Shown in pieces: positions 9,578 through 30,672 of a stretch of 64,000 nucleotides of DNA. The position numbers were made by a program, and so were the translations under genes. A model generated the notes under the pieces. That model had not been told where the DNA came from, did no database searches, and was given only the letters and a program-made list of their open reading frames with translations. Source of the stretch: Citrifermentans bremense (GTDB lineage: Bacteria > Desulfobacterota > Desulfuromonadia > Geobacterales > Geobacteraceae); contig NZ_AP023213.1 in NCBI RefSeq assembly GCF_014218275.1, positions 1,590,001-1,654,000 of the forward strand. The letters run 5' to 3'. Within the stretch, counting starts at the first letter, position 1; the number at the start of each line of letters is the position of its first letter.

Positions 9578-9982
9578 CTACGCTTGCCCAGACGCAAGAC
9601 GGGTGAGCATCTTCTGCCTGTATTCCACGATTTCCTTCCTAAGCGAGGCGAGCTGCGCCATTTTCCCATCCACCTTGCCGGTGTGCTGCTCCAGAATCTC
9701 TATCAGGCGCGGGATCATCTTCTCCGTGTTCTTCGCCTCGCCATAGGCCAGGTAGAGGTCCTGCATCTCGCGGATGCTCAACCCCAGTTCCTTCAGCCGG
9801 AGGATGAATTTGATCCTTCTGAAGTAATAGGGGGTGAACTCCCGTGCAGCACCGTCCTGCCGCTTAAGCGATTCGATGATTCCCACTTCTTCCCAGTAAC
9901 GCAGGGTTCGGGTGGTCAGCCCGTACTCCTTCGCCAAGTCACCTATCCCCACAGCCGTCTCGCCCTGTCTTAATTCGTTCAT
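9578..9982 (-). CDS. MerR-family transcriptional regulator
   Basis: A 134-residue regulator. The MerR winged HTH occupies about residues 11-80 (IGDLAKEYGLTTRTLRYWEEVGII; YYFRRIKFILRLKELGLSI) and is followed by a dimerisation coiled coil. It has no conserved metal-binding Cys residues and is short, like MerR regulators of acyl-CoA and branched-chain catabolism (LiuR type) rather than metal sensors. It is transcribed away from the IclR/IcmF operon. A palindrome of the ACGTA-N3-TACGT form lies just upstream of its start, and ACGTAAA-type sites occur in the promoters of the two catabolic operons. It is therefore the prime candidate for their local regulator. Effector unknown; an acyl-CoA is likely by family analogy. 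Confidence 0.85.
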   Translation of the reverse strand: MNELRQGETAVGIGDLAKEYGLTTRTLRYWEEVGIIESLKRQDGAAREFTPYYFRRIKFILRLKELGLSIREMQDLYLAYGEAKNTEKMIPRLIEILEQHTGKVDGKMAQLASLRKEIVEYRQKMLTRLASGQA

Positions 9983-9989
9983 GCTTTAC

Positions 9990-10042
9990 CTTTACGTAAA
10001 ATACGTCTGACCACATTTAGACGATCGTTCCGGTTTTGTCAA
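9990..10042 (-). promoter_or_regulatory. Promoter and putative autoregulatory operator of the MerR gene
   Basis: On the minus strand, TTGACA (10042-10037), a 17-base spacer and TAAATG (10019-10014) form a sigma-70-like promoter. Immediately downstream, overlapping the expected transcription start, is the palindrome ACGTA TTT TACGT followed by AAAG (about 10006-9990). It shares ACGTAAA with the operon promoters at 10134 and 19740. Confidence 0.55.
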
Positions 10043-10133
10043 CAGGTCATCCCCTTTGCTTCTTCTTCTCTCCAGCATTTTCCATGAGGAGATCAGATTT
10101 TTGTGGAGACATATAAAAATGTTTTATTTAAGC

Positions 10134-10162
10134 TTGACATGCACGTAAACGAAAGATATTTT
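10134..10162 (+). promoter_or_regulatory. Promoter/operator A of the IclR-symporter-IcmF operon
   Basis: TTGACA (10134-10139), a 17-base spacer and TATTTT (10157-10162). The spacer contains TGCACGTAAACGA, identical to the spacer start of the thiolase-operon promoter at 19740. Identity between the two sites runs 21 bases without a gap, beginning two bases before TTGACA. ACGTAAACG resembles the core of LiuR-type MerR operators. Confidence 0.68.
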
Positions 10163-10381
10163 ATTCGCACCTCCAACCCCGCCCTGACTTCGCGAACCTC
10201 CTTTCTCATTGTTTATCAGCTGTATGGCAGCCAGCGATCCATGCTGCCGCAAAAGACGGATCTCTCGTCTCCGCCAGCGCTGTAGTTGCCCGCTTGGATC
10301 TGGCCCCGGAGAATGAACACCCAGGTGTCTGATGCCGGCAGGCTTTTTCAAAACAAAGGTTTAACTAGAAGAGGAGGGGGG

Positions 10382-11149
10382 ATGAAGAAAAAGCGTCCAA
10401 AAGGGGGAACGCAGCCGCAACGGATGGACATGGCCATGGAGCTCTTGCAGACGCTGGCCGGGGAGGAAAAAACCTGCTCCCTTTCCGCGCTCGCCAGGAG
10501 AGCCGGGATCAGCAGGTATCGGACCAAGCGTCTATTGGAGAGCCTAGAACAGAAGGAGGCGGGGGGAAGTCCGCAGCCGAAGGTGAACGGAGCCGGGCAG
10601 GCACGGGGGGTGATGGAGGCCTTCTATGGCAGCATCGCTAGGGAAGTGCGTCCTGTCATGGAGTCGCTGGCGCGAAAGCACAAAGAGGCGGTGTATATGA
10701 CCTTCCTTAAGGGAGACGAGGTCCTGTTCGTCGACGTGGCCGAGGTCGAGGCCGTTGGGAAGGGGGAGCCCCTTGTAGGTAGAAGGTTCCCCTTCTTCAA
10801 AAACGCCGCCGGCAAGGTGATGCGCGCCATAGACTCCTGGGACCTCTTGGAGAAGATCGGCAAGAGCTGGCGCCGCGGCCGGTTCGGCTTTCCTGAGCTG
10901 TCGGATCTGCGGCGCGAACTTGAGCTGATCCGGGAAAAGGGTTTTGCCGTGGAGTGCGGCGGCATGGGGGAGGGGATCATCACCGTGGCCGTCGCTGTCA
11001 GGGATTACGCGGGCAAGGTGGTCGGCGCGCTCACGCTGTTGGGGCCGTCGGTACGCCTGATCGGCTCGCGTCTGGAAGAGGAGATCATACCCTCGCTGCG
11101 TGTGAGCGGCGAGCTGCTTTCCATGAAATTCGGCTATGCAAGGCCGTGA
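10382..11149 (+). CDS. IclR-family transcriptional regulator
   Basis: A 255-residue regulator. The N-terminal HTH (about residues 14-60: MELLQTLAGEEKTCSLSALARRAGISRYRTKRLLESLEQKE) is interrupted for this note only; the IclR effector domain follows (about 80-250) with EAVGKGEPLVGRRFPFF, AAGKVM and GFAVECGGMGEGI segments. IclR proteins bind small organic acids and control their catabolism. The ATG at 10382 follows a GAGGAGGGGG ribosome site. It is the first gene of the symporter-IcmF operon, so it probably senses the imported acid or a derivative. That ligand is inferred from context only. Confidence 0.83.
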   Translation: MKKKRPKGGTQPQRMDMAMELLQTLAGEEKTCSLSALARRAGISRYRTKRLLESLEQKEAGGSPQPKVNGAGQARGVMEAFYGSIAREVRPVMESLARKHKEAVYMTFLKGDEVLFVDVAEVEAVGKGEPLVGRRFPFFKNAAGKVMRAIDSWDLLEKIGKSWRRGRFGFPELSDLRRELELIREKGFAVECGGMGEGIITVAVAVRDYAGKVVGALTLLGPSVRLIGSRLEEEIIPSLRVSGELLSMKFGYARP

Positions 11150-11218
11150 AGTCGGGGGCGTAACGGCAAGGGGAGCCCGCCCCTTCGCGTGTGCAACCTT
11201 AACCTAAGGAGGAGAGCC

Positions 11219-11527
11219 ATGGCGGAAACGAGTTACGACTGGGAGAAGATAGCAAACAACAGCAAGTTTTTGGAACTGAAGAACAAGAAGAGGAGTTTTC
11301 TGTTCAGCTGGTGGATCATCTCGACCATCTATTACCTGCTTCTCCCGGTCATCTCAGGCTATTTTCCGGAAGCCTTCCGGATAAAGGTGATCGGTCCCAT
11401 CAATTTCGGCTACCTCTTCATCCTCTCCCAGTTCGTGGTCGCAATCGGCGTTGCGGCGTACTACGCCCACGTCGCCAACAAGGATTTCGACCGGCTGACC
11501 AAGCAGCTGCTCGACGTGCTCAATTAA
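11219..11527 (+). CDS. DUF485 small membrane protein (symporter partner)
   Basis: A 102-residue protein with two membrane segments (about 24-44 and 60-82) and a hydrophilic start containing WEKIANNSKFLELKNKK. DUF485 proteins (YjcH type) are almost always encoded directly before an acetate-type SSS symporter, as here with a 14-base gap. The biochemical role is not settled; an accessory subunit is commonly assumed. The start at 11219 has AGGAGGAG about 6 bases upstream. Confidence 0.87.
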   Translation: MAETSYDWEKIANNSKFLELKNKKRSFLFSWWIISTIYYLLLPVISGYFPEAFRIKVIGPINFGYLFILSQFVVAIGVAAYYAHVANKDFDRLTKQLLDVLN

Positions 11528-11541
11528 AAGGAGGGGACAGC

Positions 11542-13524
11542 ATGAAAGGAAGAATCGCCGCTTTAACGCTTACTCTTACGCTCTCCGTCTGCGCCGCCGC
11601 TCCCCTCGCAGCAGCAGCCCAGGCAGGGGCTGCCGCCGCACCCCCATCGCAGGCTGCAGTAGCGCCTGCGGCAAAGGTCACGCCTGCAGCCGCGACCGCG
11701 GCGGCGCCCGCCGCCAAGGCCGCTTCAGCCAAAGTCGACTCCCAACCCGCCAAGGTGACCCCAAACCGCGGCATCACCATCGGCATGTTCGCCCTCATCA
11801 TCGCCATCACCATGGGAGTGGTGGTCTGGGCCGCGAAGAAGACGCAGACGGCGGCCGACTTCTACACCGCGGGGGGCGGGATCACGGGACTGCAAAACGG
11901 CTGGGCCATAGCCGGGGACTACATGTCCGCCGCCTCGTTCCTGGGGATGTCCGGGCTCATCTCGCTCTACGGCATCGACGGCTTCATGTACGCGGTGGGG
12001 CCCATGTTCTCCTTCATCGCCATCCTGCTGGTCATCGCCGAACCCTGCCGCAATGCCGGCAAGTACACGCTGGGTGACATCCTCTCCTTCAGGTCGTCGC
12101 CCAAGGTGGTGCGCGGGGTGGCGGCACTTTCCACCGTCACCGTCTCCATCTTCTACCTGATTGCGCAGATGGTGGGCGCAGGGAAGCTGATGCAGATGCT
12201 GATCGGGATCCCTTACCGCGTTTCCGTCATCGGGGTTGGGGCCCTCATGGTCGCCTACGTCGTCTTCGGCGGCATGAAGGCGACCACCTGGGTGCAGATC
12301 ATCAAAGCCTCGCTTTTGATGGGTGCCACCACGCTCCTCTGCATCCTCGTCGCAGCCAAGGCAGGCTTCAACCCGGTTTCCTTCTTCACCGACATCGTGA
12401 ACAACCCCGCCATCCAGGACCATGTCAGGCTGAACGTGCTGAAGGATGCCGTTCCCAAGGCGGGGATGGATTACGGCCAGCGCTTCCTGGAGCCCGGGCT
12501 CTTCCTGAAAAGCCCGCTGGACCAGATCTCGCTGGGGATTGCCTGGGCGCTCGGCGCCGCCGGCCTGCCGCACATCCTGATGCGCTTTTTCACCGTCCCC
12601 AGCGCCAAGGAGGCGCGCAAGTCGATCATCATCGCACTTTTCCTCAACTCCAGCTTCTTCTTCATGATCAGCATCATCGGCTTCGGCGCGGCACTCTACC
12701 TGACCCCCCAGGGGATCCTGGCGGTGGACAAGGGCGGGAACATGGCGACGCTGCTCCTGGCCCAGCACATGGGTGGCGGGGCCGGAAGCCTCGGGGGAGA
12801 CATTTTCCTCGCCTTCATCTGCGCCGTCGCCTTCGCCACTATCCTCGCCGTGGTCTCTGGCCTCGTGCTCGCGGCCTCCGCGGCCATCGCCCACGACGTC
12901 TACGTGAACATCATCAAGGACGGCAAGGCCGACCAGCACCTGCAGGTGAAGGTTGCCCGCATCACCTCCCTGTTCGTCGGCACCTCCGCTATTCTCATGG
13001 GCCTCGCCGCCGAGAAGGAGAACGTGGTGGCGCTGGTGGCGCTGGCCTTCGCGGTCGCCGCCTCGGGTAACTTCCCGGTGGTCATGCTCTCGCTGTTCTG
13101 GAAGAAGTTCAACACCGCGGGGATCGTCTCCGGCCTGGTAGTCGGGACCGTTACCGCCCTCGCACTGGTGATGGTATCGCCGGTGATGACCTATCCCAAG
13201 AAGGTGGCAGCCGACGCCAAGAAGATCGTCGATACCCTGGAGCAGAAGCAGGCAACCGGCGTGGCGCTGGCGGACAAAGAGCTGAAGACCCTGGAGAAGT
13301 CGCGGGTCGAATATGAGAAGAACAAGAACGGCAGCTCCATGGTAGGCCTCGACAAGCCGATCTTCCCGCTGAAAAACCCGGGGATCGTCTCGGTGCCGCT
13401 GGGCTTCCTGGCCGCAGTCTTTGGTTGCCTCTTGTTCCGCGACCGCCGCGCCGAGGATATGTTCGCCGAGATCGACGTACGGCAGAACACCGGCCTTGGG
13501 ATAGCCAAGGCGAGCGACCACTAG
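11542..13524 (+). CDS. SSS-family cation:monocarboxylate symporter (ActP-like)
   Basis: A 660-residue solute:sodium symporter. Residues 1-26 look like a signal peptide and are followed by an Ala/Pro-rich low-complexity stretch to about residue 75. The transporter core follows, with AADFYTAGGGITGLQNGWAIAGDYMSAASFLG typical of the ActP/acetate branch in its N-terminal helices. Near residues 552-610 a charged, helical, non-membrane loop (AADAKKIVDTLEQKQ...) separates the last two helices. The likely substrate is a short monocarboxylate; with IcmF downstream, butyrate or isobutyrate is as plausible as acetate. The start at 11542 follows AGGAGGGGA. Confidence 0.86.
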   Translation: MKGRIAALTLTLTLSVCAAAPLAAAAQAGAAAAPPSQAAVAPAAKVTPAAATAAAPAAKAASAKVDSQPAKVTPNRGITIGMFALIIAITMGVVVWAAKKTQTAADFYTAGGGITGLQNGWAIAGDYMSAASFLGMSGLISLYGIDGFMYAVGPMFSFIAILLVIAEPCRNAGKYTLGDILSFRSSPKVVRGVAALSTVTVSIFYLIAQMVGAGKLMQMLIGIPYRVSVIGVGALMVAYVVFGGMKATTWVQIIKASLLMGATTLLCILVAAKAGFNPVSFFTDIVNNPAIQDHVRLNVLKDAVPKAGMDYGQRFLEPGLFLKSPLDQISLGIAWALGAAGLPHILMRFFTVPSAKEARKSIIIALFLNSSFFFMISIIGFGAALYLTPQGILAVDKGGNMATLLLAQHMGGGAGSLGGDIFLAFICAVAFATILAVVSGLVLAASAAIAHDVYVNIIKDGKADQHLQVKVARITSLFVGTSAILMGLAAEKENVVALVALAFAVAASGNFPVVMLSLFWKKFNTAGIVSGLVVGTVTALALVMVSPVMTYPKKVAADAKKIVDTLEQKQATGVALADKELKTLEKSRVEYEKNKNGSSMVGLDKPIFPLKNPGIVSVPLGFLAAVFGCLLFRDRRAEDMFAEIDVRQNTGLGIAKASDH

Positions 13525-13530
13525 CCTTGT

Positions 13531-13604
13531 CCGCGCCCCCGGGGGGGAGGGGAGTACCCATTCTTCCACCCTCCCGACCCCTCTGGGGGCAGGAGAGCGG
13601 ACCA
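13531..13604. repeat. GC-rich imperfect palindromic repeat
   Basis: Two C-run/G-run hairpins in tandem (GCGCCCCCGGGGGGGAGGG and CCCGACCCCTCTGGGGG) fill the gap before the DUF6125-like gene. The composition resembles the other intergenic palindromes in the window (for example 51377, 43623). Confidence 0.45.
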
Positions 13605-13623
13605 AAAAGACCAGGAGGTGATC

Positions 13624-14193
13624 ATGACGACAAAGACGGCTTTACAGGAAACACCGGAAACCGTTGCCGGCGACGAGGGCGTCCAGCTCCTCTATTCGCT
13701 GAGCAAGGAGGAACTGGTCCGGATAATCACCGACGACGCCAAGAACTGGCTGGCCCACGACGGGGTCTGGTTCCAGTCGCTGGAGAAGAAGTTCGGCATG
13801 GACGTGGCGGTCGACATCGACACCGACGCCTGGAGGCTTTTTACCGTCATCGAGGCGAAGCGGATCATGGAGCGGCTGGGGCTGAAACCGGGCGGGGGGG
13901 TTCCCGCACTGGTGGAGTGCCTGAAGCACCGCTTTTACGCACGCCTCAACCTGCAGCAATGCCTGGAGGTGACGGAGACCCGGGCCGTCTTTCGCATGAT
14001 CGACTGCCGGGTCCAGTCCGCCCGCAAGCGCAAGGGGCTCCCGGACCATCCCTGCAAATCCGTGGGCATCGTCGAATACTCCGGGTTCGCCAGCACCATC
14101 GACCCGCGCATCCAGACGAAGTGCCTCGCATGCCCCCCGGACGAACATCCGGAGGAGTTCTGGTGCGCCTGGGAGTTCACCCTGAAGCCCTGA
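13624..14193 (+). CDS. DUF6125-like Cys-rich protein
   Basis: A 189-residue soluble protein. I recognise the DUF6125 / L-2-amino-thiazoline-4-carboxylate hydrolase-like pattern: an N-terminal helical half with [20 protein letters not shown], then a conserved C-terminal Cys region ([44 protein letters not shown], residues about 123-186). The Cys set could bind metal or be catalytic. No reaction can be assigned. It lies between the symporter and IcmF in one operon, which ties it to short-chain acid metabolism. The ATG at 13624 is preferred over the GTG at 13618 because AGGAGG is then 5 bases upstream instead of overlapping. Confidence 0.68.
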
Positions 14194-14230
14194 CCCGCTC
14201 GCGACAGATACAACGAAAAGGAGAGAACCC

Positions 14231-17200
14231 ATGCACACCGCAGCCGCGGCGCCCTATAAATCCAAGAACAAGATCCGTTTCGTCACGGCCACGAGCCTCT
14301 TCGACGGCCATGACGCTTCCACCAACATCATCCGGCGGATGCTCCAGGCCTCGGGGGTCGAGGTGATCCACCTGGGGCACAACCGCTCGGTGGAGGCGAT
14401 CGTCTCCGCCGCCATCCAGGAGGACGCCCAGGGGATCGCGGTGAGCTGTTACCAGGGGGGACACATCCCTTTCTTCAAGTACATCCGCGATCTTTTGAAG
14501 GAGCGGGGCGCGGAGCAGGTGAAGGTATTCGGCGGGGGGGGAGGGGTCATCGTCCCGGAGGAGATCAAGGAGATCGAGAGCTACGGGGTCAGCAAGATCT
14601 TCTCGCCGGAAGACGGCCGCCGCATGGGGCTGCAGGGGATGATCAACCACATGCTGGAGCTTTGCGACTTCCACGTGGAGCGCGATCTGCAGGCGGAGAT
14701 AGAGCGGTTGAAGGGGCGGGACGTGCGCGCCGTGAACGCCCTGATCACCCTCGCCGAGCAGGCGGTTCACGAGCATAACCAGGGGTATGGGGTGGTGCGC
14801 GAGACCATCCGCGGCATGGGGCGCGAGGTTCCGACGCTCGGCATCACCGGGACCGGCGGTGCCGGCAAGAGCTCGCTCACCGACGAGCTGGTGCGCCGCT
14901 TCATCAGGGACTTCCCGGACAAAAGCGTGGCCATTCTCGCCGTCGACCCTTCGCGCCAGAGGACCGGCGGAGCGCTTCTGGGGGATCGGATCAGGATGAA
15001 CTCGATCAACACGGACCGGGTCTACATGCGCTCGCTCGCCACCCGCGACTCCCGCTCGGAACTCTCCGCCGCCATCAGCGATGCAATCGACGTGGTACGG
15101 GCGGCTGGGTTCGACCTGATCATCGTGGAAACCTCCGGCATCGGGCAGGGGGACGCGGGAGTGGTCGAGATCTGCGATGTCTCGCTCTACGTCATGACCT
15201 GCGAGTTCGGCGCCCCGACGCAGCTGGAGAAGATCGACATGCTCGATTTCGCCGACCTGGTCGCGCTCAACAAGTTCGAGAGGAAGGGGGCCGAGGACGC
15301 GCTTAGGAACGTGCGCAAGCAGTACCGCCGCAACCGCAACCTCTTCGAGCTCCCCGACGAGGAGCTCCCGATCTTCGGCACCATCGCCTCGCAGTTCAAC
15401 GATCCCGGCACCAACGTCCTCTACCTCGCGGTCTTGAACAGCTTCAACGGGAAGAAGGAGCTTGGCTGGCGCTCGCAGCTCGCCGCGCCCGAAGGCGACA
15501 GCCTGAAGCAGTACATCATCCCGCCGGACCGGATCCATTACCTCGGGGAGATCGTACAGACGGCGCGCAGCTACAGAAAGAACGTGGAGAGCCAGTCGAG
15601 GATCGCCCGGAGCCTGTTCCAGCTCAAGGGGGCCAGGGACCAGGTAAAGGGGGAGGGGACAAAAGACGAGCTGGACCGGCTTATTGCCAGCACGGACGCG
15701 GAGCTGCAGGAGGAGCCCAGGCGCATCATCGAGGGGTGGGCAGAGCTTAAGGCGAGCTACAAGCAGGACGCGCTGGTGACCCGGGTGCGGGACAAGGAAA
15801 TAAGGACCGAGCTTTTCACCAGCTCGCTTTCCGGCTCGCGCATCCCCAGGGTCTGCGTCCCCGATTACGAGGAATGGGGGGAGATCGTCAAGTGGAGCCT
15901 GAAGGAGAACCTCCCCGGCTACTTCCCGTACACGGCGGGGGTCTTCCCCTTCAAGCGCGCGGAGGAGGACCCCAAGCGCCAGTTCGCCGGCGAGGGAACC
16001 CCGGAGCGGACCAACCGCCGCTTCCATTACCTCTGTCAGGACGACGGCGCCAAAAGGCTCTCGACCGCCTTCGACAGCGTGACCCTTTACGGCGAGGACC
16101 CGGACTACCCGCCCGACGTCTACGGAAAGGTGGGGGAAAGCGGGGTCTCGGTCTGCACCGTCGAGGACGTGCAGAAGCTCTACGCCGGGTTCGACCTCTG
16201 CGCCCCCTCCACCAGCGTTTCCATAACCATCAACGGCCCCGCGCCGATGATGCTCGCCATGTTCTTCAACGCCGCCATCGAGCAGCAGGTGGAGAAGTTC
16301 AGGAAGGAGCAGGGGCGCGAGCCGTCGGCGCCGGAGTACCAGGAGATAAAATCCTGCACCCTGAAGACCGTGCGCGGCACGGTGCAGGCGGACATCCTCA
16401 AGGAGGACCAGGGGCAGAATACCTGCATCTTCTCCACGGAATTCGCCCTGAAGATGATGGGGGACATCCAGCAGTACTTCATCGAGCAGCAGGTGAGAAA
16501 CTACTACTCCGTTTCCATCAGCGGCTACCACATCGCGGAGGCGGGGGCGAACCCGATCTCGCAGCTCGCCTTCACCCTCTCCAACGGCTTCACCTACGTC
16601 GAGTATTACCTCTCGCGCGGGATGCACATCGACGATTTCGCCCCCAACCTCTCCTACTTCTTCTCCAACGGCCTCGACCCGGAGTACACGGTGATCGGGC
16701 GGGTGGCGCGGCGGATATGGGCGGTGGTGATGCGGGAGAAGTACGGCGCCAACGAGCGGAGCCAGAAGCTCAAGTACCACATCCAGACCAGCGGCCGGTC
16801 GCTGCACGCGCAGGAGATGGACTTCAACGACATCCGCACCACGCTGCAGGCTCTCATGGCGATCTACGACAACTGCAACTCGCTGCACACCAACGCCTAC
16901 GACGAGGCGGTGACGACCCCCACCGAGGAGTCGGTGCGACGGGCCATGGCGGTACAGATGATCATCACCAAGGAGCTCGGGCTTGCCAGGAACGAGAACC
17001 CGCTACAGGGAGCGTTCATCATCGACGAGCTGACTGATCTCGTGGAGGAGGCTGTCCTTGCCGAGTTCGAGAAGATCGACCAGCGAGGCGGGGTGCTGGG
17101 TGCAATGGAGACCCAGTACCAGCGGAGCAAGATCCAGGACGAATCTATGCTCTACGAGCACAAGAAGCACTCGGGCGAGCTTCCCATCATCGGGGTCAAC

Positions 17201-17479
17201 ACCTTCCTCAACCCTCGCGCGGGGGAGGAGGGGTACCAGGTCCCGGGAGAGCTGGCGCGCGCCACTGCGGAAGAGAAGGAGCAGCAGATCCGGAACCTGC
17301 GCGCTTTCCAGGAGCGGAACAAGGAGAAGGCCCCGCTGGCCCTGAAGCGCCTCCAGGAGGTTGCCGTATCCGGAGGCAACATCTTCGACGAACTGATGGA
17401 GACGGTGAAGGTGGCGTCCTTGGGGCAGATCACCCGCGCGCTGTACCAGGTGGGGGGGGAGTACCGGCGCAACATGTAG
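14231..17479 (+). CDS. icmF: Fused isobutyryl-CoA mutase with G-protein chaperone (IcmF)
   Basis: A 1082-residue adenosylcobalamin enzyme interconverting isobutyryl-CoA and n-butyryl-CoA. Domain order matches IcmF: B12-binding domain (about 15-150, DGHDAS base-off His motif), MeaB-type GTPase (about 200-430: [10 protein letters not shown]-loop, [24 protein letters not shown]) and the TIM-barrel acyl-CoA domain (about 545-1060). F585 (in RQFAG) and Q729 (in [10 protein letters not shown]) replace the Tyr and Arg that bind the carboxylate in methylmalonyl-CoA mutase. The 144-residue spacing equals that of the specificity pair described for IcmF (Phe598/Gln742). Isovaleryl/pivalyl-CoA isomerisation is a known side activity of the family. 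A good AAGGAGAG site precedes the ATG. AdoCbl supply fits the cobalamin adenosyltransferase at 27923. Confidence 0.95.
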
Positions 17480-17585
17480 GATCCAAAGGCATCGCACACA
17501 GATTTGGCGGATGACGCGGATAACGGCGGATCAACCATGGTGGACCCAACGCCAACGGCCGGGCAGGAAGAGAAAAGGAGAACGC

Positions 17586-18170
17586 ATGGACGTATTCGAG
17601 GCGATCAACGGCAGAAGGAGCATCCGGAAATACAAGGACGCTCCGGTCGAATGGGAGAAGGTGGGGCAGGTGCTCGACGCCGCGAGGCTCGCCCCCTCGT
17701 GGAAGAACATGCAGTGCTGGCGCTTCCTGGTGTTGAACTCGGAGGGGAGGAAAAACGCGCTGCTCGACGCCTTCCCGGAGGAGAACCCGGGGAAGAAGGC
17801 TCTGGCCCAGGCACCGGTAATCATAGTGGTATGCGCCGATCCGATCCAGTCCGGCGTGGAGAACGGCATCGAGTACTACGTAGCCGACGCCGCCATCGCC
17901 TTCGAGCACATCTGTCTCGCCGCGCACGGTCTCGGACTTGGCACCTGCTGGATGGGATGGTATGATGAGCCCGCCATCAAGGCGGCGCTGGCCATTCCGG
18001 CCGGGATCAGGGTCATCGGCGTGACGCCGTTGGGGTATCCCGACCAGGAGCCTAAGCCGCGCCCGCGCAAGGAATTGAATGAAATTGCCTACTACAACGA
18101 TTGGGGGGTGACGGATGCTGAAGAGGCAGGAATCGCAGCAGAGAATTGCCAGGCTGCAACAGGAACTTAA
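17586..18170 (+). CDS. Nitroreductase-family FMN oxidoreductase
   Basis: A 194-residue nitroreductase-fold protein. The N-terminal RRSIRKYKD (FMN phosphate contact) is followed by ARLAPSWKNMQCWRF, and further on by a DAAIAFEHICLAAHGLGLGTCWMGW segment typical of the family. It would reduce a substrate with NAD(P)H via FMN; the physiological substrate is unknown. The start at 17586 has AAAAGGAGAA upstream. The last 18 or so codons overlap the start of the M24 peptidase gene by 56 bases; the DWG segment near 18108 would be a more usual family end, so the tail may be a recent extension. Confidence 0.85.
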   Translation: MDVFEAINGRRSIRKYKDAPVEWEKVGQVLDAARLAPSWKNMQCWRFLVLNSEGRKNALLDAFPEENPGKKALAQAPVIIVVCADPIQSGVENGIEYYVADAAIAFEHICLAAHGLGLGTCWMGWYDEPAIKAALAIPAGIRVIGVTPLGYPDQEPKPRPRKELNEIAYYNDWGVTDAEEAGIAAENCQAATGT

Positions 18171-19284
18171 GGCAAAGGGGATCGACGGGGCGCTCTTCAT
18201 CTACCCCATCGACGTCTACTATTTCACCGGCACCCGCCAGAACTCGACGCTCTGGGTCCCGGCCGAGGGGAAACCGCGGCTGATGGTGCGCAAGAGCGTC
18301 TCTAGGGCGGTGAATGAAAGCTGCATCGAGGAGACGGTACCGTTTCCTTCCAGCAAGGAGTTTCCGGGACTGTTCCCGCCCGAACTGCAGAAGATCGGCT
18401 TCACCTTCGACGTGGCGCCGGTACAGCAGTACAACTACTACGCGAAGCTCTTGCCGGGGCGGGAGTTCGTCGACGTCTCCGCGATCAACCGCGAGATCCG
18501 CTCCGTTAAGTCGGAGTGGGAACTTGGGCAGATGAGGGAAAGCGGCGACCGGATCTGCCAGGTCTTCAGGGAGGTCCCGGGGTTCCTGAAGGAGGGGATG
18601 CGCGAGGTGGACCTGGCGGCCGAGTTCGAATGCCGACTCAGGAAAGCGGGGAGCGAAGGTTACGTCCGGATGCGCGCCTTCAACCAGGAGCTGTTCCAGG
18701 GGCTAGCCGTATCTTCCGCAACGGCCTGCGAACCGGGCTTTTTCGACGGCGCCGTCACCGGGCAAGGGATGTCCAGCGCCTCCCCGCATGGCGCTTCCGC
18801 CGCTGTGATCAGCGCCAACGCCCCGGTCCTTGTCGACTATACCGGCATCTTCAACGGCTACATCGTGGACATCACCCGGTTTTTCGTCATAGGGAAGCTG
18901 GCGCCCGAGCTGGAGCACGGCTTTGCCACGGCGCTGGCCATACAGAAATACCTGGTGGACAACCTGAAACCGGGGGCGAGCTGCGAGGAGCTCTTCCTGA
19001 AAGCGGCCGAAATGGCTGAAGAAGCCGGCCTGGCCCGCAACTTCATGGGGGCTCCCGGAGAGAACGCCCGCTTCGTGGGGCACGGTGTGGGGCTGGAACT
19101 GGACGAGTTTCCGGTGCTGGCGCAAGGTTTCAAGGTGCCTCTGCAGGAAGGGCAGACCATAGCGATCGAGCCGAAGTTCGTCTTCCCGGGCCAGGGCGTC
19201 ATAGGGATCGAGAACACCTTTGCCGTCGGCAAAAACGGCGGCGTGAAACTGACCGACATGCCGGACGAGATCGTGTACCTTTAG
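18115..19284 (+). CDS. M24-family Xaa-Pro peptidase-like protein
   Basis: A 389-residue protein with a creatinase-type N-terminal domain (about 1-140) and a pita-bread M24 domain (about 150-389). All five metal ligands of an active enzyme are visible: Asp in VDYTGIF, Asp in IVDITRFF, His in GHGVGLELDEFP, Glu in IEPKFV and Glu in GIENTF. It probably cleaves X-Pro dipeptides or a related bond. The link to the acyl-CoA operon is only positional. A GGGGGTGA ribosome site precedes the ATG at 18115, inside the nitroreductase gene. Confidence 0.87.
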   Translation: MLKRQESQQRIARLQQELKAKGIDGALFIYPIDVYYFTGTRQNSTLWVPAEGKPRLMVRKSVSRAVNESCIEETVPFPSSKEFPGLFPPELQKIGFTFDVAPVQQYNYYAKLLPGREFVDVSAINREIRSVKSEWELGQMRESGDRICQVFREVPGFLKEGMREVDLAAEFECRLRKAGSEGYVRMRAFNQELFQGLAVSSATACEPGFFDGAVTGQGMSSASPHGASAAVISANAPVLVDYTGIFNGYIVDITRFFVIGKLAPELEHGFATALAIQKYLVDNLKPGASCEELFLKAAEMAEEAGLARNFMGAPGENARFVGHGVGLELDEFPVLAQGFKVPLQEGQTIAIEPKFVFPGQGVIGIENTFAVGKNGGVKLTDMPDEIVYL

Positions 19285-19335
19285 CAGGCTCCCGTCCTTC
19301 CGCGCCCGCCGCGGTCATAGCAGCAGATCTTTACA

Positions 19336-19368
19336 GGGGGAGGCTCAGCCAGAGCTTCCCCCGTTTTT
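19336..19368 (+). terminator. Intrinsic terminator of the IcmF operon
   Basis: GGGGGAGGCTC, short loop, GAGCTTCCCCC (one G-T pair), then G and five T residues. It lies about 50 bases after the M24 peptidase stop. Confidence 0.78.
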
Positions 19369-19450
19369 GTATTACCCTCTACGATGAAGAGCCTCGCCCC
19401 CCCCTGCACTTCCAGGACCTGTGGAGAATTAGAGTATCAACTCTCGAGTC

Positions 19451-19530
19451 CCCGCTCCCTCGTTCTTCCCCGCTCCCTCGTTCTTCCCCCCCTCCCGACC
19501 TCCCTCCTCCCGACCTCCCTCTCCTCCAGG
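19451..19530. repeat. Pyrimidine-rich tandem repeats
   Basis: Two adjacent duplications on the plus strand: CTCCCTCGTTCTTCCCC repeated twice (about 19457-19491), then CCTCCCGACCTCCCT repeated twice (about 19492-19522). The strand is almost pure C/T. No coding role is evident. Confidence 0.6.
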
Positions 19531-19567
19531 GGGAGGAGAATGGAACGACTTTGGGCCTTTTGTTTCC

Positions 19568-19612
19568 CGCCCCCGGAGGGGGAGGGGCAGGGAGGGGGAG
19601 GAGATTTGCCAG
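19568..19612. repeat. C/G-rich imperfect palindrome
   Basis: CCCGCCCCCGGAGGGGGAGGGGCAGGGAG followed by GATTTGCC is described here by its parts: a C-run, GGAGG centre and G-run. It resembles the dispersed hairpin family at 51377 and ends in GATTTGCC like the copies at 32081 and 54464. Confidence 0.45.
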
Positions 19613-19739
19613 ATGCTACGCCCGGAAAATTACTCCACGCCCTTGCCTGACAAACGGCTTTATGCAACCTTTTACCGGGACTTCTGGTTGCATCCTGGCC
19701 CGAATTCGCTAATATTGTAAAAACATGTTTTAGAAATGC

Positions 19740-19768
19740 TTGACATGCACGTAAACGACATATATATT
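19740..19768 (+). promoter_or_regulatory. Promoter/operator B of the thiolase (beta-oxidation) operon
   Basis: TTGACA (19740-19745), a 17-base spacer and TATATT (19763-19768), a strong sigma-70 match. The spacer starts TGCACGTAAACGA, the same as promoter A at 10134. It lies 32 bases before the thiolase ATG. Confidence 0.75.
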
Positions 19769-19799
19769 GGCCTCACAAATAACTGCTGTTGGAGGTGAC

Positions 19800-20975
19800 A
19801 TGAAAGACATCTTCGTCGTTGAGTCACAGAGAACCCCGTTTGGCTCTTTTGGCGGCGTTCTTTCCGATGTTGAGGCGACTGTCCTTGGGGGCGGCGCCAT
19901 CAAGGCTCTGCTGGAGCGAACCGGCCTGGACCCGGCAGAAGTCGACGAGGTCATCGCCGGGCAGGTGCTCTCCGGCGGCTGCGGGCAGGCTCCTGCGCGT
20001 CAGGCCATGCGCGGCGCCGGGATCCCCGACAGCGCCCACGCCATGACCATCAACAAGGTCTGCGGCAGCGGATTGAAAGCGATCATGCTGGGAGCAGGTT
20101 CCATCCAGCTGGAAGATTCCGAAATAGTGGTTGCCGGCGGCATGGAAAACATGTCCCTCGCTCCCTTCCTGCTCAAGAAGGCCCGCTACGGCTACCGCAT
20201 GGGGCACGGCGCCCTCGTCGACCTGATGATTTACGACGGCCTGCAGGACCCGTATTCGGGGCGTCACATGGGGGAGATAGCCGAGGCTGCGGTCAAAAAG
20301 CATGGCCTCACCCGTGAGGCGCAGGATGAATTCACGCTGCGCTCCTACAAGCTGGCGCAGGAGGCAGTGCGCGGCGGGGTCTTCAAGGACGAGATCGCGC
20401 CGGTGGTGAAAAAGGGGCGCAAGGGGGACGAGGTGGTCTCGGATGACGAGGAGCCATTCAAGGTCGACTTCGACAAGCTGACGCAGTTGAGACCGGTGTT
20501 CAGCAAGGACGGGACCATCACAGCCGCCAACGCCTCCAGCATCAACGACGGCGCGGCTTTCACGCTCCTCGCGGGGGGGGCGGCGCTCAAGCGCTGCAAT
20601 CTCGCCCCAAAGGCGCGCGTCGTTGCCTACGCCACCGGAAGCCTGCACCCGGAGCTCTACACCGAAGCCCCGGTGACGGCGATCCAGGCCGCATGCGCCA
20701 GGGCTGGGCTAAGAGTCGGCGATATCGATCTCTTCGAAGTAAACGAGGCCTTCGCCGCGGTCACCATGATCGCCATGAAGGAGCTCGATCTCGATCCCGG
20801 CAAGGTGAACGTCAACGGGGGAGCCTGCGCCCTGGGCCATCCTATTGGAGCCAGCGGCGCCAGGCTCGCAGGGACCGTGATCAGGGAGCTGCACAAGCGG
20901 CAGGCGCGCTACGGGCTCGCGACCCTCTGCATCGGGGGCGGCGAGGCGGTCGCGGTGATTTTCGAAAGGGTTTAG
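19800..20975 (+). CDS. Acetyl-CoA C-acyltransferase (thiolase)
   Basis: A 391-residue thiolase that cleaves acetoacetyl-CoA (or longer 3-ketoacyl-CoA) with CoA into acetyl-CoA units. Catalytic residues are in place: nucleophile Cys88 in NKVCGSG, NEAFA motif, His347 in GHPIGASG and Cys377 in CIGGGEA. The length is normal for the family. It is the first gene of the operon, with GGAGGTGA 6 bases before the ATG, and is followed by the dehydrogenase and hydratase of the same spiral. Confidence 0.93.
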   Translation: MKDIFVVESQRTPFGSFGGVLSDVEATVLGGGAIKALLERTGLDPAEVDEVIAGQVLSGGCGQAPARQAMRGAGIPDSAHAMTINKVCGSGLKAIMLGAGSIQLEDSEIVVAGGMENMSLAPFLLKKARYGYRMGHGALVDLMIYDGLQDPYSGRHMGEIAEAAVKKHGLTREAQDEFTLRSYKLAQEAVRGGVFKDEIAPVVKKGRKGDEVVSDDEEPFKVDFDKLTQLRPVFSKDGTITAANASSINDGAAFTLLAGGAALKRCNLAPKARVVAYATGSLHPELYTEAPVTAIQAACARAGLRVGDIDLFEVNEAFAAVTMIAMKELDLDPGKVNVNGGACALGHPIGASGARLAGTVIRELHKRQARYGLATLCIGGGEAVAVIFERV

Positions 20976-20998
20976 ACACTTTCTCTGGGGAGGCTTAC

Positions 20999-21844
20999 AT
21001 GTTCAAGACAGTCGGTGTTTTAGGAGCAGGGCAGATGGGGAGTGGAATCGCCCACGTCTTCGCGCAGCACGCTTACCAGGTCCTGGTCTACGACATCTCC
21101 GAGGTGCAACTTTCGAAGGCGCTCAAGTCGATCGAGCAGAACCTGGAGCGGCAGGCGAAGAAGGGGGTCATCTTCGACACCAGCATCCAGGGGATCATGG
21201 CCCGCATTACGGTCACCAAGGATCTGAAGGAGTTCTCCGGCTGCGACCTCGTCATCGAAGCGGCAACGGAGAACGAGGCGCTCAAGTTCGACCTTTTCCG
21301 AAAGCTCGACGAGGTGGTCAAGAAGGAGGCCATCCTCGCCTCCAATACCTCCTCCATCTCCATCACCCGCATCGCCGCGGTAACGAAGAGGCCGGAGCAG
21401 GTGATCGGGATGCACTTCATGAACCCCGTGCCGGTGATGCAGCTCGTCGAGGTGATCCGCGGCATCGCCACCAGCGACGAGACCTTCGAGGCGATAGGTC
21501 ACCTGGTAGGCCTTTTGAACAAGCAGATGGCCGTATCCCAGGACTACCCGGGCTTCATCGTCAACCGGGTGCTGATCCCGATGATCAACGAGGCCGTCTT
21601 CGCCTTGTACGAAGGGATAGCTACCGCCGAGGATATCGACAAGGGGATGAAACTCGGTACCAACCAGCCGATGGGGCCCCTGCAGTTGGCCGACTTCATC
21701 GGCCTCGACACGGTGCTCGCCATCTGCAACGTGCTGCACGACGGCTTCAAGGACCCCAAGTACCGCCCCTGTCCGCTCCTGGTGAAGATGGTCGACGCCG
21801 GCTACCTCGGCAAGAAGTCCGGCAAGGGCTTTTACAACTATTAG
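20999..21844 (+). CDS. 3-hydroxybutyryl-CoA dehydrogenase
   Basis: A 281-residue NAD-dependent dehydrogenase of 3-hydroxyacyl-CoA. The Rossmann motif GVLGAGQMGSGIA starts at residue 5 and is followed by D in VYDIS, ENEALK, and the catalytic His in GMHFMNPVPVM. The C-terminal helical domain (about 185-281) includes FIVNRVLIPMINEA and ends with LGKKSGKGFYNY, typical of the short (non-fused) HBD form. Interval to thiolase 23 bases, to crotonase 21 bases; same operon. Confidence 0.94.
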   Translation: MFKTVGVLGAGQMGSGIAHVFAQHAYQVLVYDISEVQLSKALKSIEQNLERQAKKGVIFDTSIQGIMARITVTKDLKEFSGCDLVIEAATENEALKFDLFRKLDEVVKKEAILASNTSSISITRIAAVTKRPEQVIGMHFMNPVPVMQLVEVIRGIATSDETFEAIGHLVGLLNKQMAVSQDYPGFIVNRVLIPMINEAVFALYEGIATAEDIDKGMKLGTNQPMGPLQLADFIGLDTVLAICNVLHDGFKDPKYRPCPLLVKMVDAGYLGKKSGKGFYNY

Positions 21845-21865: not shown

Positions 21866-22648
21866 ATGGACGCGAAGAATATCCAGTGTGAAATCAGCGA
21901 AGGGGTGGCTGTGGTGACGGTGAACCGGCCGGAAAGCCTCAACGCCTTGAACAGCGCGGTGCTGGCCGAGTTGGAATGCACCCTGTACGGGATCGAGCAG
22001 GACAGTACCGTCAAGGCTGTCGTCCTCACCGGCGCAGGCGAGAAAGCGTTCGTCGCCGGTGCCGACATCAAAGAGATGGCGGATATGACCTCCTTCGAGG
22101 GGCACCGGTTCGCCCAAAAGGGGCAGCGGTTGATCCTCTTCATCGAGAAGATGAGCAAGCCGGTCATCGCGGCTGTGAACGGCTACGCGCTGGGAGGGGG
22201 GCTGGAACTGGCCCTTGCCTGCGACGTCATCTACGCCTCGGAAAACGCCAAGTTCGGCTTTCCCGAGGTGACCCTGGGGATCATCCCCGGCTTTGGCGGC
22301 ACGCAGAACCTGGCCCGGCTAATCGGCCCGAACCGCGCCAAGGAACTGGTTTTCAGCGGCAGGATCATTCCGGCGGCCAAGGGGCTTGACTGGGGCATCG
22401 CGAACGAAGTTGTCCCGCTTTCAGAGCTGAAGGAGAAGGCCTTAGGCCTCGCCCGGGAGATGGCGAAAAACGGCGCAATCGCCGTGGGTTACGCCAAGGA
22501 CGCCATCGTCAACGGGTTGAACATGACCAAGGAGGACGGCTTCCGCTACGAAAGCTCCCTCTTCGGCGTCCTCTTCGCCACCGAGGACCAGAAGGAGGGG
22601 ATGGGGGCGTTCGTGGAGAAGCGCAAGGCGAAGTTCCAGGGGAAATGA
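21866..22648 (+). CDS. Enoyl-CoA hydratase (crotonase)
   Basis: A 260-residue crotonase-fold hydratase adding water to crotonyl-CoA. The oxyanion-hole segments GADIKEMA and NGYALGGGLELALACD are present. Both catalytic Glu positions expected for hydratases are visible, one in GGGLELALACD and one in FPEVTLGIIPGFGG. Length and layout are standard. Located between the 3-hydroxyacyl-CoA dehydrogenase and the acyl-CoA dehydrogenase in one operon. Confidence 0.93.
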   Translation: MDAKNIQCEISEGVAVVTVNRPESLNALNSAVLAELECTLYGIEQDSTVKAVVLTGAGEKAFVAGADIKEMADMTSFEGHRFAQKGQRLILFIEKMSKPVIAAVNGYALGGGLELALACDVIYASENAKFGFPEVTLGIIPGFGGTQNLARLIGPNRAKELVFSGRIIPAAKGLDWGIANEVVPLSELKEKALGLAREMAKNGAIAVGYAKDAIVNGLNMTKEDGFRYESSLFGVLFATEDQKEGMGAFVEKRKAKFQGK

Positions 22649-22697: not shown

Positions 22698-23837
22698 ATG
22701 AACTTTGAATTGAGCCAGGACCACAAGGTGCTGAAGGATTCCGTTCGCGATTTCGTGGTCAACGAGATCAAGCCGCTCGCCATGCAGATCGACGAAGAGC
22801 ACATGATTCCCGACTCCCTGGTGCAGAAGATGGGCGAGATGGGTTTCCTCGGCTCCTACTTCCCAGAGGAGTACGGCGGCGCCGGGCTGGACATGCTCTC
22901 CTACGCCATCGTGGTCGAGGAGGTCTCGAAAGCCTGCGGCTCCAGCGGCGTCCTCATCTCGGCCCACACCTCCCTTGCCTGCGGCCCGATTTACACCTTC
23001 GGCACCGAGGAGCAGAAGAAAAAATGGCTCCCGGACCTGAACACCGGCAAGGTCATCGGCTGCTTCCTCTTGACCGAGCCTGACGCGGGCAGCGATGCCG
23101 GGGCCATCTCCACCACCTACAGACGCGACGGCGATCATTTCGTGATCAACGGTTCCAAGATCTTCATCACCAACGGCGGTTACAGGGGGACCGGCGTCCT
23201 CTTCGCCACCTCCGATAAGAGCCTGAAGCACAAGGGTGTCTCCGCCTTCATCATCGACCTGCAGTCCCCGGGGGTCGAGATCCTCAAGAACGAGAAGAAG
23301 CTCGGGATCCGCGGCAGCTACACCACCGCCTTCGCCCTCGACAGCGTGCGCATCCCGGTGGAGAACCTCCTGGGTCAGGAAGGGCAGGGTTTCAAGATCG
23401 CCATGGACACCCTGAACGGCGGCCGTATCGGGATCGCCTCGCAAGCCTTGGGGATCGCGGAAGGTGCCTTCGACCTGGCGCTCGCTTACTCCAAGGAGAG
23501 AAAGCAGTTCGGCCACCCCATCTGCGAGCTGCAGGCGATCCAGTTCAAGCTGGCCGACATGTACGCGAAGATCGAGACCAGCAAGCTCATGACCTACAAG
23601 GCGGCCTGCCTGAAGGACAGCAAGAAGAACTACACCATGGAGTCCGCCATGTGTAAGATGCTCGCCTCTGAGGCGGCCACCTTCGTCACCAAGGAGGCGA
23701 TCCAGATCCACGGCGGCTACGGCTTCATCGTCGATTACGAGGTGGAGCGGATGTACCGCGACGCGAAGATCACCGAAATCTACGAGGGGACCAACGAGGT
23801 TCAGCGCGTGGTGATCTCGAAGATGCTCTTGTCGTAA
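22698..23837 (+). CDS. Short-chain acyl-CoA dehydrogenase (butyryl-CoA type)
   Basis: A 379-residue FAD acyl-CoA dehydrogenase oxidising a saturated short acyl-CoA to the 2-enoyl-CoA and giving electrons to ETF. Visible motifs: LTEPDAGSDAG, GSKIFITNGG, GRIGIASQALG, QFGHPICELQAIQFKLADM and the catalytic-base region YEGTNEVQR with Glu near residue 366. Its place directly after crotonase suggests butyryl-CoA as substrate. It ends 144 bases before the membrane ETF:quinone oxidoreductase; that gap contains a hairpin. Confidence 0.92.
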   Translation: MNFELSQDHKVLKDSVRDFVVNEIKPLAMQIDEEHMIPDSLVQKMGEMGFLGSYFPEEYGGAGLDMLSYAIVVEEVSKACGSSGVLISAHTSLACGPIYTFGTEEQKKKWLPDLNTGKVIGCFLLTEPDAGSDAGAISTTYRRDGDHFVINGSKIFITNGGYRGTGVLFATSDKSLKHKGVSAFIIDLQSPGVEILKNEKKLGIRGSYTTAFALDSVRIPVENLLGQEGQGFKIAMDTLNGGRIGIASQALGIAEGAFDLALAYSKERKQFGHPICELQAIQFKLADMYAKIETSKLMTYKAACLKDSKKNYTMESAMCKMLASEAATFVTKEAIQIHGGYGFIVDYEVERMYRDAKITEIYEGTNEVQRVVISKMLLS

Positions 23838-23874: not shown

Positions 23875-23981
23875 GAGGAGCGCAGCGCAGACTAGATACG
23901 GAAATGGGGGAGCATCGTCAGGCTACCGCCTGGAAGGGTGGCGCTGCCGCAGGGCAGTCAATAAACGCGCAGGAGTCGACC

Positions 23982-26153: not shown

Positions 26154-26212
26154 GCGGGACCCATGCGCGGCGGCAATGACGCAGCTACCAAAGAGTGAAC
26201 AAGGAGGAAACC

Positions 26213-26995
26213 ATGAAGATACTGGTATGCATCAAGCAGGTTCCGGACATGGAATCGCGGTTCAAGCTCAACAGCGAAGGTACCTGGTACGACGAGGCCG
26301 ACCTCGCTTTCCGGATGAACGAGTACGACGAGTACGCGGTGGAGCAGGCAGTCCAGTTGAAGGAGCGGTTGGCGGGGGAGCCGGAGATAACGGTGCTTTC
26401 CTTAGGTCCGGACCGCGTGGTAGAGGCGCTGAAGAAGGCGCTGGCGATGGGGGCTGACCGGGCGGTTCACGTGAAGGACGACAAGTACTACCAGAAGGAT
26501 CCCTGGCAGGTCGCTTCCGTCATAGCTGGGCACGCGGCGGGGCAGGGGTATGACCTCGTCTTTACCGGGATGCAGTCCCAGGACCGCGGCTCCGCGCAGG
26601 TTGGGGTCACAGTCGCCGAGTTGCTCGGTTTTGGCTGCGCTACCACCTTGGTCGGTTTTGCCTACGAAGCGGGCGTCATCACGGCGAAACGCGAACTGGA
26701 AGGAGGGAGCAAGGGGGTGGTGAAGCTGAAGCTCCCCGCGCTGGTCACCTGTCAGCTGGGGCTCAACACACCCCGGTACCCGACGCTTCCCAACATCATG
26801 AAGGCTAAGAAGAAGGAGATCCTGGTCCAGCCGGTCTCGGAGCTCTTGAAGGAAGCCGAGGTCACCGGGACCGGCGGCATGTACCCTCCAGCGAAGAGGG
26901 GGGGCGGCATCGTCATCGAGGGAGAGGTGAACGATCAGCTCGACAAGCTGATGGGGATTCTCAAGGAAAAGACCACCGTGCTGCGTGCGGCCTGA
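26213..26995 (+). CDS. etfB: Electron transfer flavoprotein beta subunit
   Basis: A 260-residue EtfB that binds AMP and forms the ETF heterodimer with EtfA. Typical landmarks are ILVCIKQVPD at the N-terminus, MNEYDEYAVEQAVQLKE, the FTGMQSQDRGSAQVG nucleotide loop and LPALVTCQLGLNTPRYPTLPNIMKAKKK. AAGGAGG lies 6 bases before the ATG. EtfA follows after 13 bases. With no NADH-linked bifurcation partner nearby and an EMO-type gene upstream, ordinary electron transfer to quinone is the likely role. Confidence 0.94.
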   Translation: MKILVCIKQVPDMESRFKLNSEGTWYDEADLAFRMNEYDEYAVEQAVQLKERLAGEPEITVLSLGPDRVVEALKKALAMGADRAVHVKDDKYYQKDPWQVASVIAGHAAGQGYDLVFTGMQSQDRGSAQVGVTVAELLGFGCATTLVGFAYEAGVITAKRELEGGSKGVVKLKLPALVTCQLGLNTPRYPTLPNIMKAKKKEILVQPVSELLKEAEVTGTGGMYPPAKRGGGIVIEGEVNDQLDKLMGILKEKTTVLRAA

Positions 26996-27008
26996 AAGGA
27001 GAATAGCT

Positions 27009-27926: not shown

Positions 27927-28453
27927 GCCTGACGGAAGGGAAGGTACAGGTCTACACCGGCAACGGCAAGGGAAAGACCACCGCGGCCCTGGGGCTCGCG
28001 CTCCGTGCGGTGGGGCGGGGGCTCAAGGTCTGCATGGTCCAGTTCATCAAGGGGGGAGGGGAGTACGGCGAGCACCTTGCCGCCGAGCGGCTGGCGCCTC
28101 TTCTGACCATCCACCAGACCGGGCGGGACTGCTGGATCTACAAGGACCGGCTGGACCCGCAGGACGTCGCCATCGCCCGCGGAACGCTGAACCTCGCACG
28201 AGAGACCCTGACCGGCGGACAGTACGACCTGGTCATCCTCGACGAGATCAACGGTGCGGCCTGGTTCGGCCTGATCACGGTCGAGGACATCCTCTCCCTG
28301 ATCAAGCAAAGGCCTGAGCAGGTGGAACTGGTGCTGACCGGGCGCAGCGCCGACCCCAGGGTCATCGAGGCCGCGGACCTGGTCACGGAGATGGTCGAGG
28401 TGAAACACTATTACCAGGCAGGGGTGCCGGCCCGGACCGGAATCGAGAAGTGA
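27923..28453 (+). CDS. cobO: Cob(I)alamin adenosyltransferase, CobO/BtuR type
   Basis: A 176-residue enzyme that transfers adenosyl from ATP to cob(I)alamin to make adenosylcobalamin. The P-loop GNGKGKTTAALG is at residues about 13-24, followed by VQFIKGG, DLVILDEIN and LVLTGRSADP, all typical of the CobA/CobO family. The 4-base overlap with etfA is unusual placement for a cofactor gene. The only evident AdoCbl user in the window is IcmF, so it likely supplies that enzyme as part of the pathway. Confidence 0.92.
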   Translation: MSLTEGKVQVYTGNGKGKTTAALGLALRAVGRGLKVCMVQFIKGGGEYGEHLAAERLAPLLTIHQTGRDCWIYKDRLDPQDVAIARGTLNLARETLTGGQYDLVILDEINGAAWFGLITVEDILSLIKQRPEQVELVLTGRSADPRVIEAADLVTEMVEVKHYYQAGVPARTGIEK

Positions 28454-28483
28454 GTCGGCGTAAACCGTGATGCGGAGGCAGAG

Positions 28484-29641: not shown

Positions 29642-29708
29642 AGCGTCGGACAGGTCGGGCAGGTCGGACTGCTCGGAGTGACAGTGTGAAGAAAACAGGA
29701 GGGTGTCT

Positions 29709-30671: not shown

Positions 30672-30672
30672 C

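Follow-up and report, generated by a model that had tools for sequence, protein, structure and literature searches.

The 64,000-nucleotide stretch of the Citrifermentans bremense genome analysed here (contig NZ_AP023213.1, positions 1,590,001 to 1,654,000; hereafter the window) carries two neighbouring gene runs with predicted roles in isobutyrate and butyrate oxidation. Their promoters share a conserved site, and the first of them adjoins the divergent gene of a MerR-family regulator. We call the run that contains the isobutyryl-CoA mutase gene icmF operon A, and the run that begins with a thiolase gene operon B. Our analysis suggests, with a probability of about three in four, that a local MerR regulon comprises the promoters of both operons and probably also the merR leader, and that MerR would most likely repress the butyrate/isobutyrate operons. 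Positions below are those of the window, on the forward strand unless stated otherwise.

The operator shared by promoters A and B

Promoters A and B have 21 identical bases, GCTTGACATGCACGTAAACGA, at 10132-10152 and 19738-19758. Promoter A (10134..10162) reads TTGACA-17-TATTTT, with its -10 element at 10157-10162, and promoter B (19740..19768) reads TTGACA-17-TATATT, with its -10 element at 19763-19768. The initial annotation had described this pair as 21 bases identical, with TTGACA, 17-base spacers and good -10 elements, and direct reading of the sequence bears it out. Both promoters were also recovered by a promoter scan of 9450-20100, which gave three sigma-70-like sites against a shuffle mean of 1.9: promoter B (11 of 12 matches), promoter A (10 of 12) and an unrelated site at 17938 (10 of 12). 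Of the three, the unrelated site is the one that lacks a perfect TTGACA.

The shared sequence is rare. A 19-mer allowing up to 3 mismatches occurs at 2 places in the window, compared to 0.01 expected from shuffles, and in the whole genome (4.46 Mb, one contig) the 18-mer TTGACATGCACGTAAACG has exactly two copies, both at butyrate-type operons; no other place matches it with 1 or 2 mismatches, and four do with 3. The genome-wide search proposed with the initial annotation thus found no spread of the motif over unrelated genes, and in the family (see below) 3 of 51 matches were off target. The 9-mer core ACGTAAACG, tried as a motif by itself, was rejected, with 13 places in the genome versus 22 for its backward-read control; because the bare core is common, the signal resides in the longer site. 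A wider motif, AAAACATGTTTT, has its sole exact copy at promoter B and, at one mismatch, 16 forward matches versus 7 for the backward control.

Judged from its sequence, the operator appears to be an imperfect 16-bp inverted repeat, TTGACAT-NN-ACGTAAA, which extends beyond the spacer into the -35 box. Operator A (10134..10149) and operator B (19740..19755) both read TTGACAT-GC-ACGTAAA, and are identified by direct reading, genome count and conservation; the stretch predicted to be bound by MerR is TTGACATNNACGTAAA. A MerR-type operator had been placed in the spacer by the initial annotation. The conserved site is real, but its left half is the -35 box itself, so that it is not confined to the spacer. 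The exact 16-bp operator occurs in the genome only at the IcmF and thiolase operons, and 7 places elsewhere match it with one mismatch.

The structure of the site was described from 79 distinct sites (59 at merR, 20 at thiolase genes), all with at least 13 of 15 matches, in a set that takes in loci fetched by the motif and leaves out sites too near the end of a locus. The half-sites TTGACAT and ACGTAAA are each found in 64 of the 79, two bases apart. In the consensus, five of the seven pairs are complementary; the exceptions, the G at position 3 and the A at position 6, are exactly the positions at which TTTACGT must be altered to give the -35 hexamer TTGACA. A fully symmetric operator, TTTACGTTAACGTAAA, is found at the thiolase gene of locus L056. 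The 20 distinct thiolase sites lie 56-67 bp ahead of the start codon.

Conservation of the site in relatives

To score relatives, we counted matches to the 15-position pattern TTGACATNNACGTAAAC within 350 bp divergent from merR, with windows from the same loci as controls and a threshold of 13/15 that was set by eye after inspecting the sites. When loci were fetched with nothing but the MerR protein, 47 of 60 had a site at this threshold, versus 1 of 1164 controls; in a second MerR-fetched set the figures are 23 of 29 loci and 0 of 487 controls. The best scores in the 60-locus set are split between 8-10 (13 loci) and 13-15 (47 loci), with none at 11-12.

A degenerate motif, searched in 48 genomes of the family, gave 51 matches in 29 genomes versus 4 for the backward control. 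Judged by locus content or distance to merR, 48 of the 51 adjoin a merR orthologue or precede thiolase, symporter/IcmF, M24 or acyl-CoA dehydrogenase/hydratase genes; the three off-target matches are in genomes G019, G024 and G044. Sites of the regulon are present in all 25 family genomes that have a merR orthologue, in 1 of 7 that have only a paralogue (G026) and in none of 16 that have neither (Fisher p = 8e-13 for the association of site and orthologue, a value that ignores relatedness); in this tally G019 was placed with the paralogue genomes by synteny. A search independent of MerR, with a composite pattern in 395 genomes of the phylum, gave 11 sites in 7 genomes and none for the control. 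In G271, G313 and G352, of a further family (f5), a MerR homologue of about 50% identity is encoded divergently from the site, and Etf or FeS genes are close by.

Some features of these sets stand apart. The two off-target sites of G019 and G024 (L194, L195) have TTGACACGCACGTAAAC in common, with no recognised acyl-CoA genes adjoining and no second palindrome of the kind described below. Larger apparent regulons are seen at L197 and L198 (G027) and L224 (G072), with extra sites before other acyl-CoA dehydrogenase/hydratase or thiolase genes. Genomes labelled Chlorobiaceae (L056, L063, L064 and L065) have MerR, IcmF and thiolase genes and a divergent MerR-type site; their second palindrome is poor (3-4 mismatches at four merR sites), and both transfer and mis-binning are conceivable.

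The MerR protein and the proposed mechanism

The regulator (9578..9982, reverse strand, first base of the start codon at 9982) has 134 amino acids and no cysteine. It belongs to the MerR family by its Pfam scores: 48.7 bits for MerR_1 (cut-off 21.6), 38.3 for MerR (28.2) and 46.5 for MerR-DNA-bind (25.4). It shares these helix-turn-helix and MerR-DNA-bind domains with CueR, CadR, ZntR, MerR and SoxR, and its best Protein Data Bank sequence matches are CadR and CueR; metal sensors are its best NCBIfam matches as well. However, it scores at most 56.8 bits against the metal-sensing CueR/CadR/ZntR/MerR subfamilies, whose equivalog cut-offs are at least 143, and it differs from them also in its lack of cysteine, in the 17-bp spacer of its presumed targets and in a site centred near the -35 box rather than in mid-spacer. 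The absence of cysteine, which extends to 53 of 60 motif-bearing MerR orthologues, makes a metal sensor or a SoxR-type sensor unlikely. In the scan with the MerR protein, the nearest named relative, from Citrifermentans bremense R1, is 92% identical.

Conserved linkage makes a strong, though not conclusive, case for MerR as the protein that binds the sites. The initial annotation had proposed one local regulon under this protein: linkage upholds this for the two operons, and probably for merR, with MerR binding as the part that we infer. Binding, repression and effector are all proposed here on the grounds of linkage, geometry and gene context. A MerR dimer would recognise the 16-bp inverted repeat through a half-site near ACGTAAA/TTTACGT, one copy of which would have been turned into the -35 hexamer in both catabolic promoters. 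Bound MerR would cover the -35 box of a near-consensus promoter with a 17-bp spacer and block RNA polymerase, most likely causing repression. It would be released when a short-chain acyl-CoA, or a related metabolite of butyrate or isobutyrate, builds up; the target genes suggest a C4 acyl-CoA as effector. Both operons would then be switched on together, one for uptake and IcmF interconversion, the other for beta-oxidation and electron transfer (thiolase to Etf).

The question arises as to whether MerR might rather activate these promoters, as do well-known members of its family (PMC5045206). The same source gives activated promoters spacers of 19-20 bp and an operator centred 7-8 bp from the -35 box. 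In A and B the spacer is 17 bp and the operator centre lies about 2 bp from the -35 box; a 17-bp rather than a 19-20-bp spacer makes classical MerR activation unlikely and favours steric repression. Among the 79 sites, a -10 element (TAnnnT) is placed at 17 bp in 58, at 19 bp in 11 and at 15 bp in 9, and with this prevailing distance and a near-consensus -35 box no distortion of the spacer would be needed. Moreover, the operator covers the -35 box, and LiuR, also of the MerR family, is described as a repressor (PMC3223726). The presence of a second conserved element speaks for activation in one respect, as the repressor could be another protein. On balance we consider an activating MerR unlikely.

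The merR leader

The initial annotation had also reported a palindrome, ACGTA-N3-TACGT, overlapping the start of merR. It lies in fact at 9994-10006, 12-24 bp upstream of the start codon, and we rejected it as a conserved merR operator, its outer TACGT half being missing in the nearest relative (L007). From the sequence, a better candidate for a leader operator is TTTACGTAAAGGTAAA (9985..10000, reverse strand), which lies over the ribosome-binding region and has one mismatch to TTKACRTNNACGTMAR. A possible merR promoter, TTGACA-17-TAAATG (10014..10042, reverse strand), was seen by eye; its -10 element is weak and it is absent from the output of the promoter scan. Of 77 relatives, with paralogues counted, 38 have TTTACGT or ACGTAAA close to the start of merR, compared to 10 of 770 control windows; the forms include TTTACGTAAA (18 relatives), TTAACGTAAA (11) and TTGACGTAAA (5). 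Autoregulation of merR through this leader site is possible.

A second palindrome upstream of the operator

Upstream of both operators lies another palindrome, TAnAA-N5-TTnTA, which we call element 1: TATAAAAATGTTTTA at promoter A (10112..10126) and TAAAAACATGTTTTA at promoter B (19718..19732). In both cases it is placed exactly 7 bp upstream of the -35 box, with its centre near -50. Although element 1 played no part in the selection of sites, it is perfect in 58 of the 79 and has at most one mismatch in 66, compared to 18 of 44,800 random 15-mers from the loci at one mismatch or fewer, and about 1% when the letters of the element are shuffled. In the MerR-fetched set alone, it is perfect in 29 of 47 and has at most one mismatch in 35. 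Of the family matches, 31 of 34 examined have it within one mismatch, and the other three are the off-target ones. As a global site, element 1 was rejected, TADAANNNNGTTHTA having 12 places in the genome versus 9 for the backward control; only its two copies in the window, out of the whole genome, have TTGACA 7 bp downstream. Its conservation suggests a separate regulatory input besides MerR, whatever its binder.

Evidence against the regulon, and alternatives

Several observations weigh against the regulon proposed above. The near-invariance of the operator is partly built in, as the sites were picked at 13/15 or better and some were fetched by the motif. In the region tested, 13 of the 60 MerR relatives lack the site; nine of them are of the paralogue clade (see below), and four (L016, L052, L057 and L059) are outside it. 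A site within 350 bp is present at 13 of the 20 thiolase genes in MerR-fetched loci and absent at the other 7; five of these seven (L022, L041, L063, L064 and L065) begin less than 100 bp after a gene of operon A, that of L061 comes first among the recognised genes divergent from merR, and L038 is the sole unexplained case. One genome with IcmF (G005, 70% complete) has no detected MerR or site, and its contig ends inside the symporter gene. As for the leader, the loose 16-bp pattern at one mismatch shows no genome-wide enrichment (14 rows, which fall at 10 places, versus 10 for the backward control), and the merR leader copy at 9985-10000 is one of these ten places; among relatives, the leader element is absent from 39 of 77, and TTTACGT itself is found in only 19 of 77. 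Finally, the genome encodes a MerR paralogue whose DNA-binding domain is similar to that of MerR, such that the same sites could suit it, and one genome (G026; L193/L219), in which a paralogue but no merR orthologue was found, retains both operators as well as the second palindrome, which suggests that the paralogue may be able to use the sites.

This paralogue, one of five MerR_1 matches in the genome, is encoded at C1:3245169 (in the stretch C1:3237000-3256000, L141), is 67% identical to MerR and has EtfB and EtfA genes within about 6 kb. Its relatives form a clade of 14 rows nested among the motif-bearing MerRs (support 99/92; deeper forks are weak). It could be that the paralogue, or both proteins, mainly binds the sites, and that the local MerR is minor or redundant. 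Besides the domain similarity and the case of G026, genome G072 is in line with this, as its IcmF site is about 7 kb away from the closest MerR gene of the stretch concerned. However, the sites follow the orthologue and not the paralogue in the tally of genomes given above (25/25 versus 1/7), and none of the 14 rows of the paralogue clade has the studied site at its own promoter; all 14 have a different conserved divergent element, AAACRNYGTTTTGTAAA. We therefore regard a leading role of the paralogue as rather improbable. Leucine versus isoleucine at residue 27 was considered as a specificity residue distinguishing MerR from the paralogue and rejected, as MerRs of another family, which have isoleucine there, keep the site.

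The IclR-family protein encoded by the first gene of operon A had been proposed as a second input by the initial annotation, and it might act on both promoters through TAnAA-N5-TTnTA. In favour of this, besides the position of its gene, the 15-bp format of element 1 is like that of the IclR group-2 consensus TGRAACAN1-2TGTTYCA, with AA and TT pairs at the spacing of element 1 (PMC8222616). The outer letters differ, however, the G/C of the consensus being A/T in element 1. Moreover, element 1 is perfect in 13 loci where the start of an IcmF, symporter or acyl-CoA dehydrogenase gene is no more than 700 bp away from merR, too close for an IclR gene to fit in between, and an IclR match (E 1e-15) was found in only 3 of the 60 MerR-fetched loci, counting the loci themselves and not the rest of their genomes. 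No binding site of the local IclR was demonstrated in our analysis, and we consider its part as second regulator equally doubtful.

The last alternative, that the likeness of A and B merely reflects a recent duplication or a strong sigma-70 consensus with no operator, is hardly tenable: TTGACA is indeed the sigma-70 consensus and the 21-bp identity is exact here, but ACGTAAAC lies outside any sigma-70 element and yet the full site recurs in MerR-fetched loci far above controls, and the two promoters of relatives may diverge while both keep the motif (TTGACATTAACGTAAAC and TTGACTTTAACGTAAAC in G011), so that the conservation data already contradict it.

Genes of the two operons

Genes were named from Pfam and NCBIfam profile scores, and several enzyme names score under the NCBIfam cut-offs. 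Operon A begins with the IclR-family regulator (10382..11149; IclR_C 82.3 bits, HTH_IclR 24.5 bits), followed by a sodium:solute symporter of the monocarboxylate/acetate type (11311..13524, start uncertain; Pfam SSF 304.9 bits, NCBIfam MctC 558 bits, under the cut-off of 670), the fused isobutyryl-CoA mutase/GTPase IcmF (14231..17479; equivalog 1917 bits, cut-off 1500), a nitroreductase-family protein (17511..18170; Pfam 105 bits) and, as its last gene, an M24 peptidase-family protein (18115..19284; Pfam 138.5 bits). In several genomes (L200, L201, L206 and L218), a nitroreductase-family gene is found with the IcmF operon and also with the merR paralogue.

Between the operons lies a terminator-like hairpin (19336..19362; 11 pairs and a T tail); terminator-like sites are not enriched in the region (6 versus 9.2 in shuffles). 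In the interval between this hairpin and promoter B, 19440-19605 contains short pyrimidine- or purine-rich repeats (ccctcccgacctccctc and similar). A scan of the window against Rfam gave no match.

Operon B starts with an acetyl-CoA acetyltransferase (thiolase; 19800..20975; Pfam 297 bits, TIGR01930 422 bits). Next come 3-hydroxybutyryl-CoA dehydrogenase (20972..21844; NCBIfam 433 bits, above the cut-off of 420), enoyl-CoA hydratase (21866..22648; 324 bits, under 394), an acyl-CoA dehydrogenase of the butyryl-CoA type (22698..23837; 477 bits to acryloyl-CoA reductase, under 640), an iron-sulfur oxidoreductase (23904..26153) and EtfB (26195..26995), the last two with profile matches under the cut-off, and EtfA (26985..27926), named by its position beside EtfB. 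The region 27692..31497 encodes the cobalamin adenosyltransferase CobA (above its cut-off), a second acyl-CoA dehydrogenase (under) and a probable CoA-transferase pair, of which CoA-transferase B scores only 29.5 bits. Each of the two gene runs is presumably a single transcript.

IcmF, thiolase, Hbd, Crt, acyl-CoA dehydrogenase and Etf thus all stand behind the shared sites, as would be expected of a butyrate/isobutyrate regulon. Proteins of the IcmF family interconvert isobutyryl-CoA and butyryl-CoA, and operons A and B together would therefore form a route for the oxidation of both isobutyrate and butyrate. Geobacter bemidjiensis, which we take to be a relative of the present genome, offers a physiological parallel. 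Its electron donors include butyrate, isobutyrate and valerate (PMC2996986).

Comparison with known systems and significance

Among regulators of the MerR family, those of the GlnR/TnrA type also recognise a short inverted repeat of 16-17 bp; the sequence, effector and targets differ. In its logic, the local regulon would be LiuR-like, and the corrected operator and the second element would be its new parts. As here, LiuR is a MerR-family protein beside acyl-CoA catabolic operons, of which it is described as a repressor (PMC3223726; counts of its regulons are given in PMC5343134); LiuR, however, targets branched-chain amino acid catabolism (liu/ivd/bkd operons) in proteobacteria, whereas the targets here are IcmF, thiolase, Hbd, Crt, Acd and Etf. 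The initial annotation had likened the operator to that of LiuR; the two may be alike, and the motif did not occur in the text consulted on LiuR. In the 7 plasmid-record regions that we examined there was no LiuR gene, the records holding other genes or being unannotated.

In subsurface settings where Fe(III) is reduced, the predominant organisms are often Geobacter species (PMC2996986). Among the top matches in the open literature, we found no description of a MerR regulator of these operons, nor any account of how Geobacter switches on the oxidation of butyrate or isobutyrate. A tentative generalisation, somewhat short of an even chance in our estimation, is that the promoter cassette formed by TAnAA-N5-TTnTA, 7 bp, TTGACAT-NN-ACGTAAA and a -10 element at 17 bp is specific to the lineage of Geobacteraceae and their kin, where it would control the oxidation of short-chain fatty acids: a cysteine-free, acyl-CoA-sensing MerR would repress on the -35 box, and a second factor upstream would integrate another signal, for example acetate or respiratory state. 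For the present organism, the site points to a concrete regulon in which two or three binding sites would answer to a candidate sensor of short-chain acyl-CoA.

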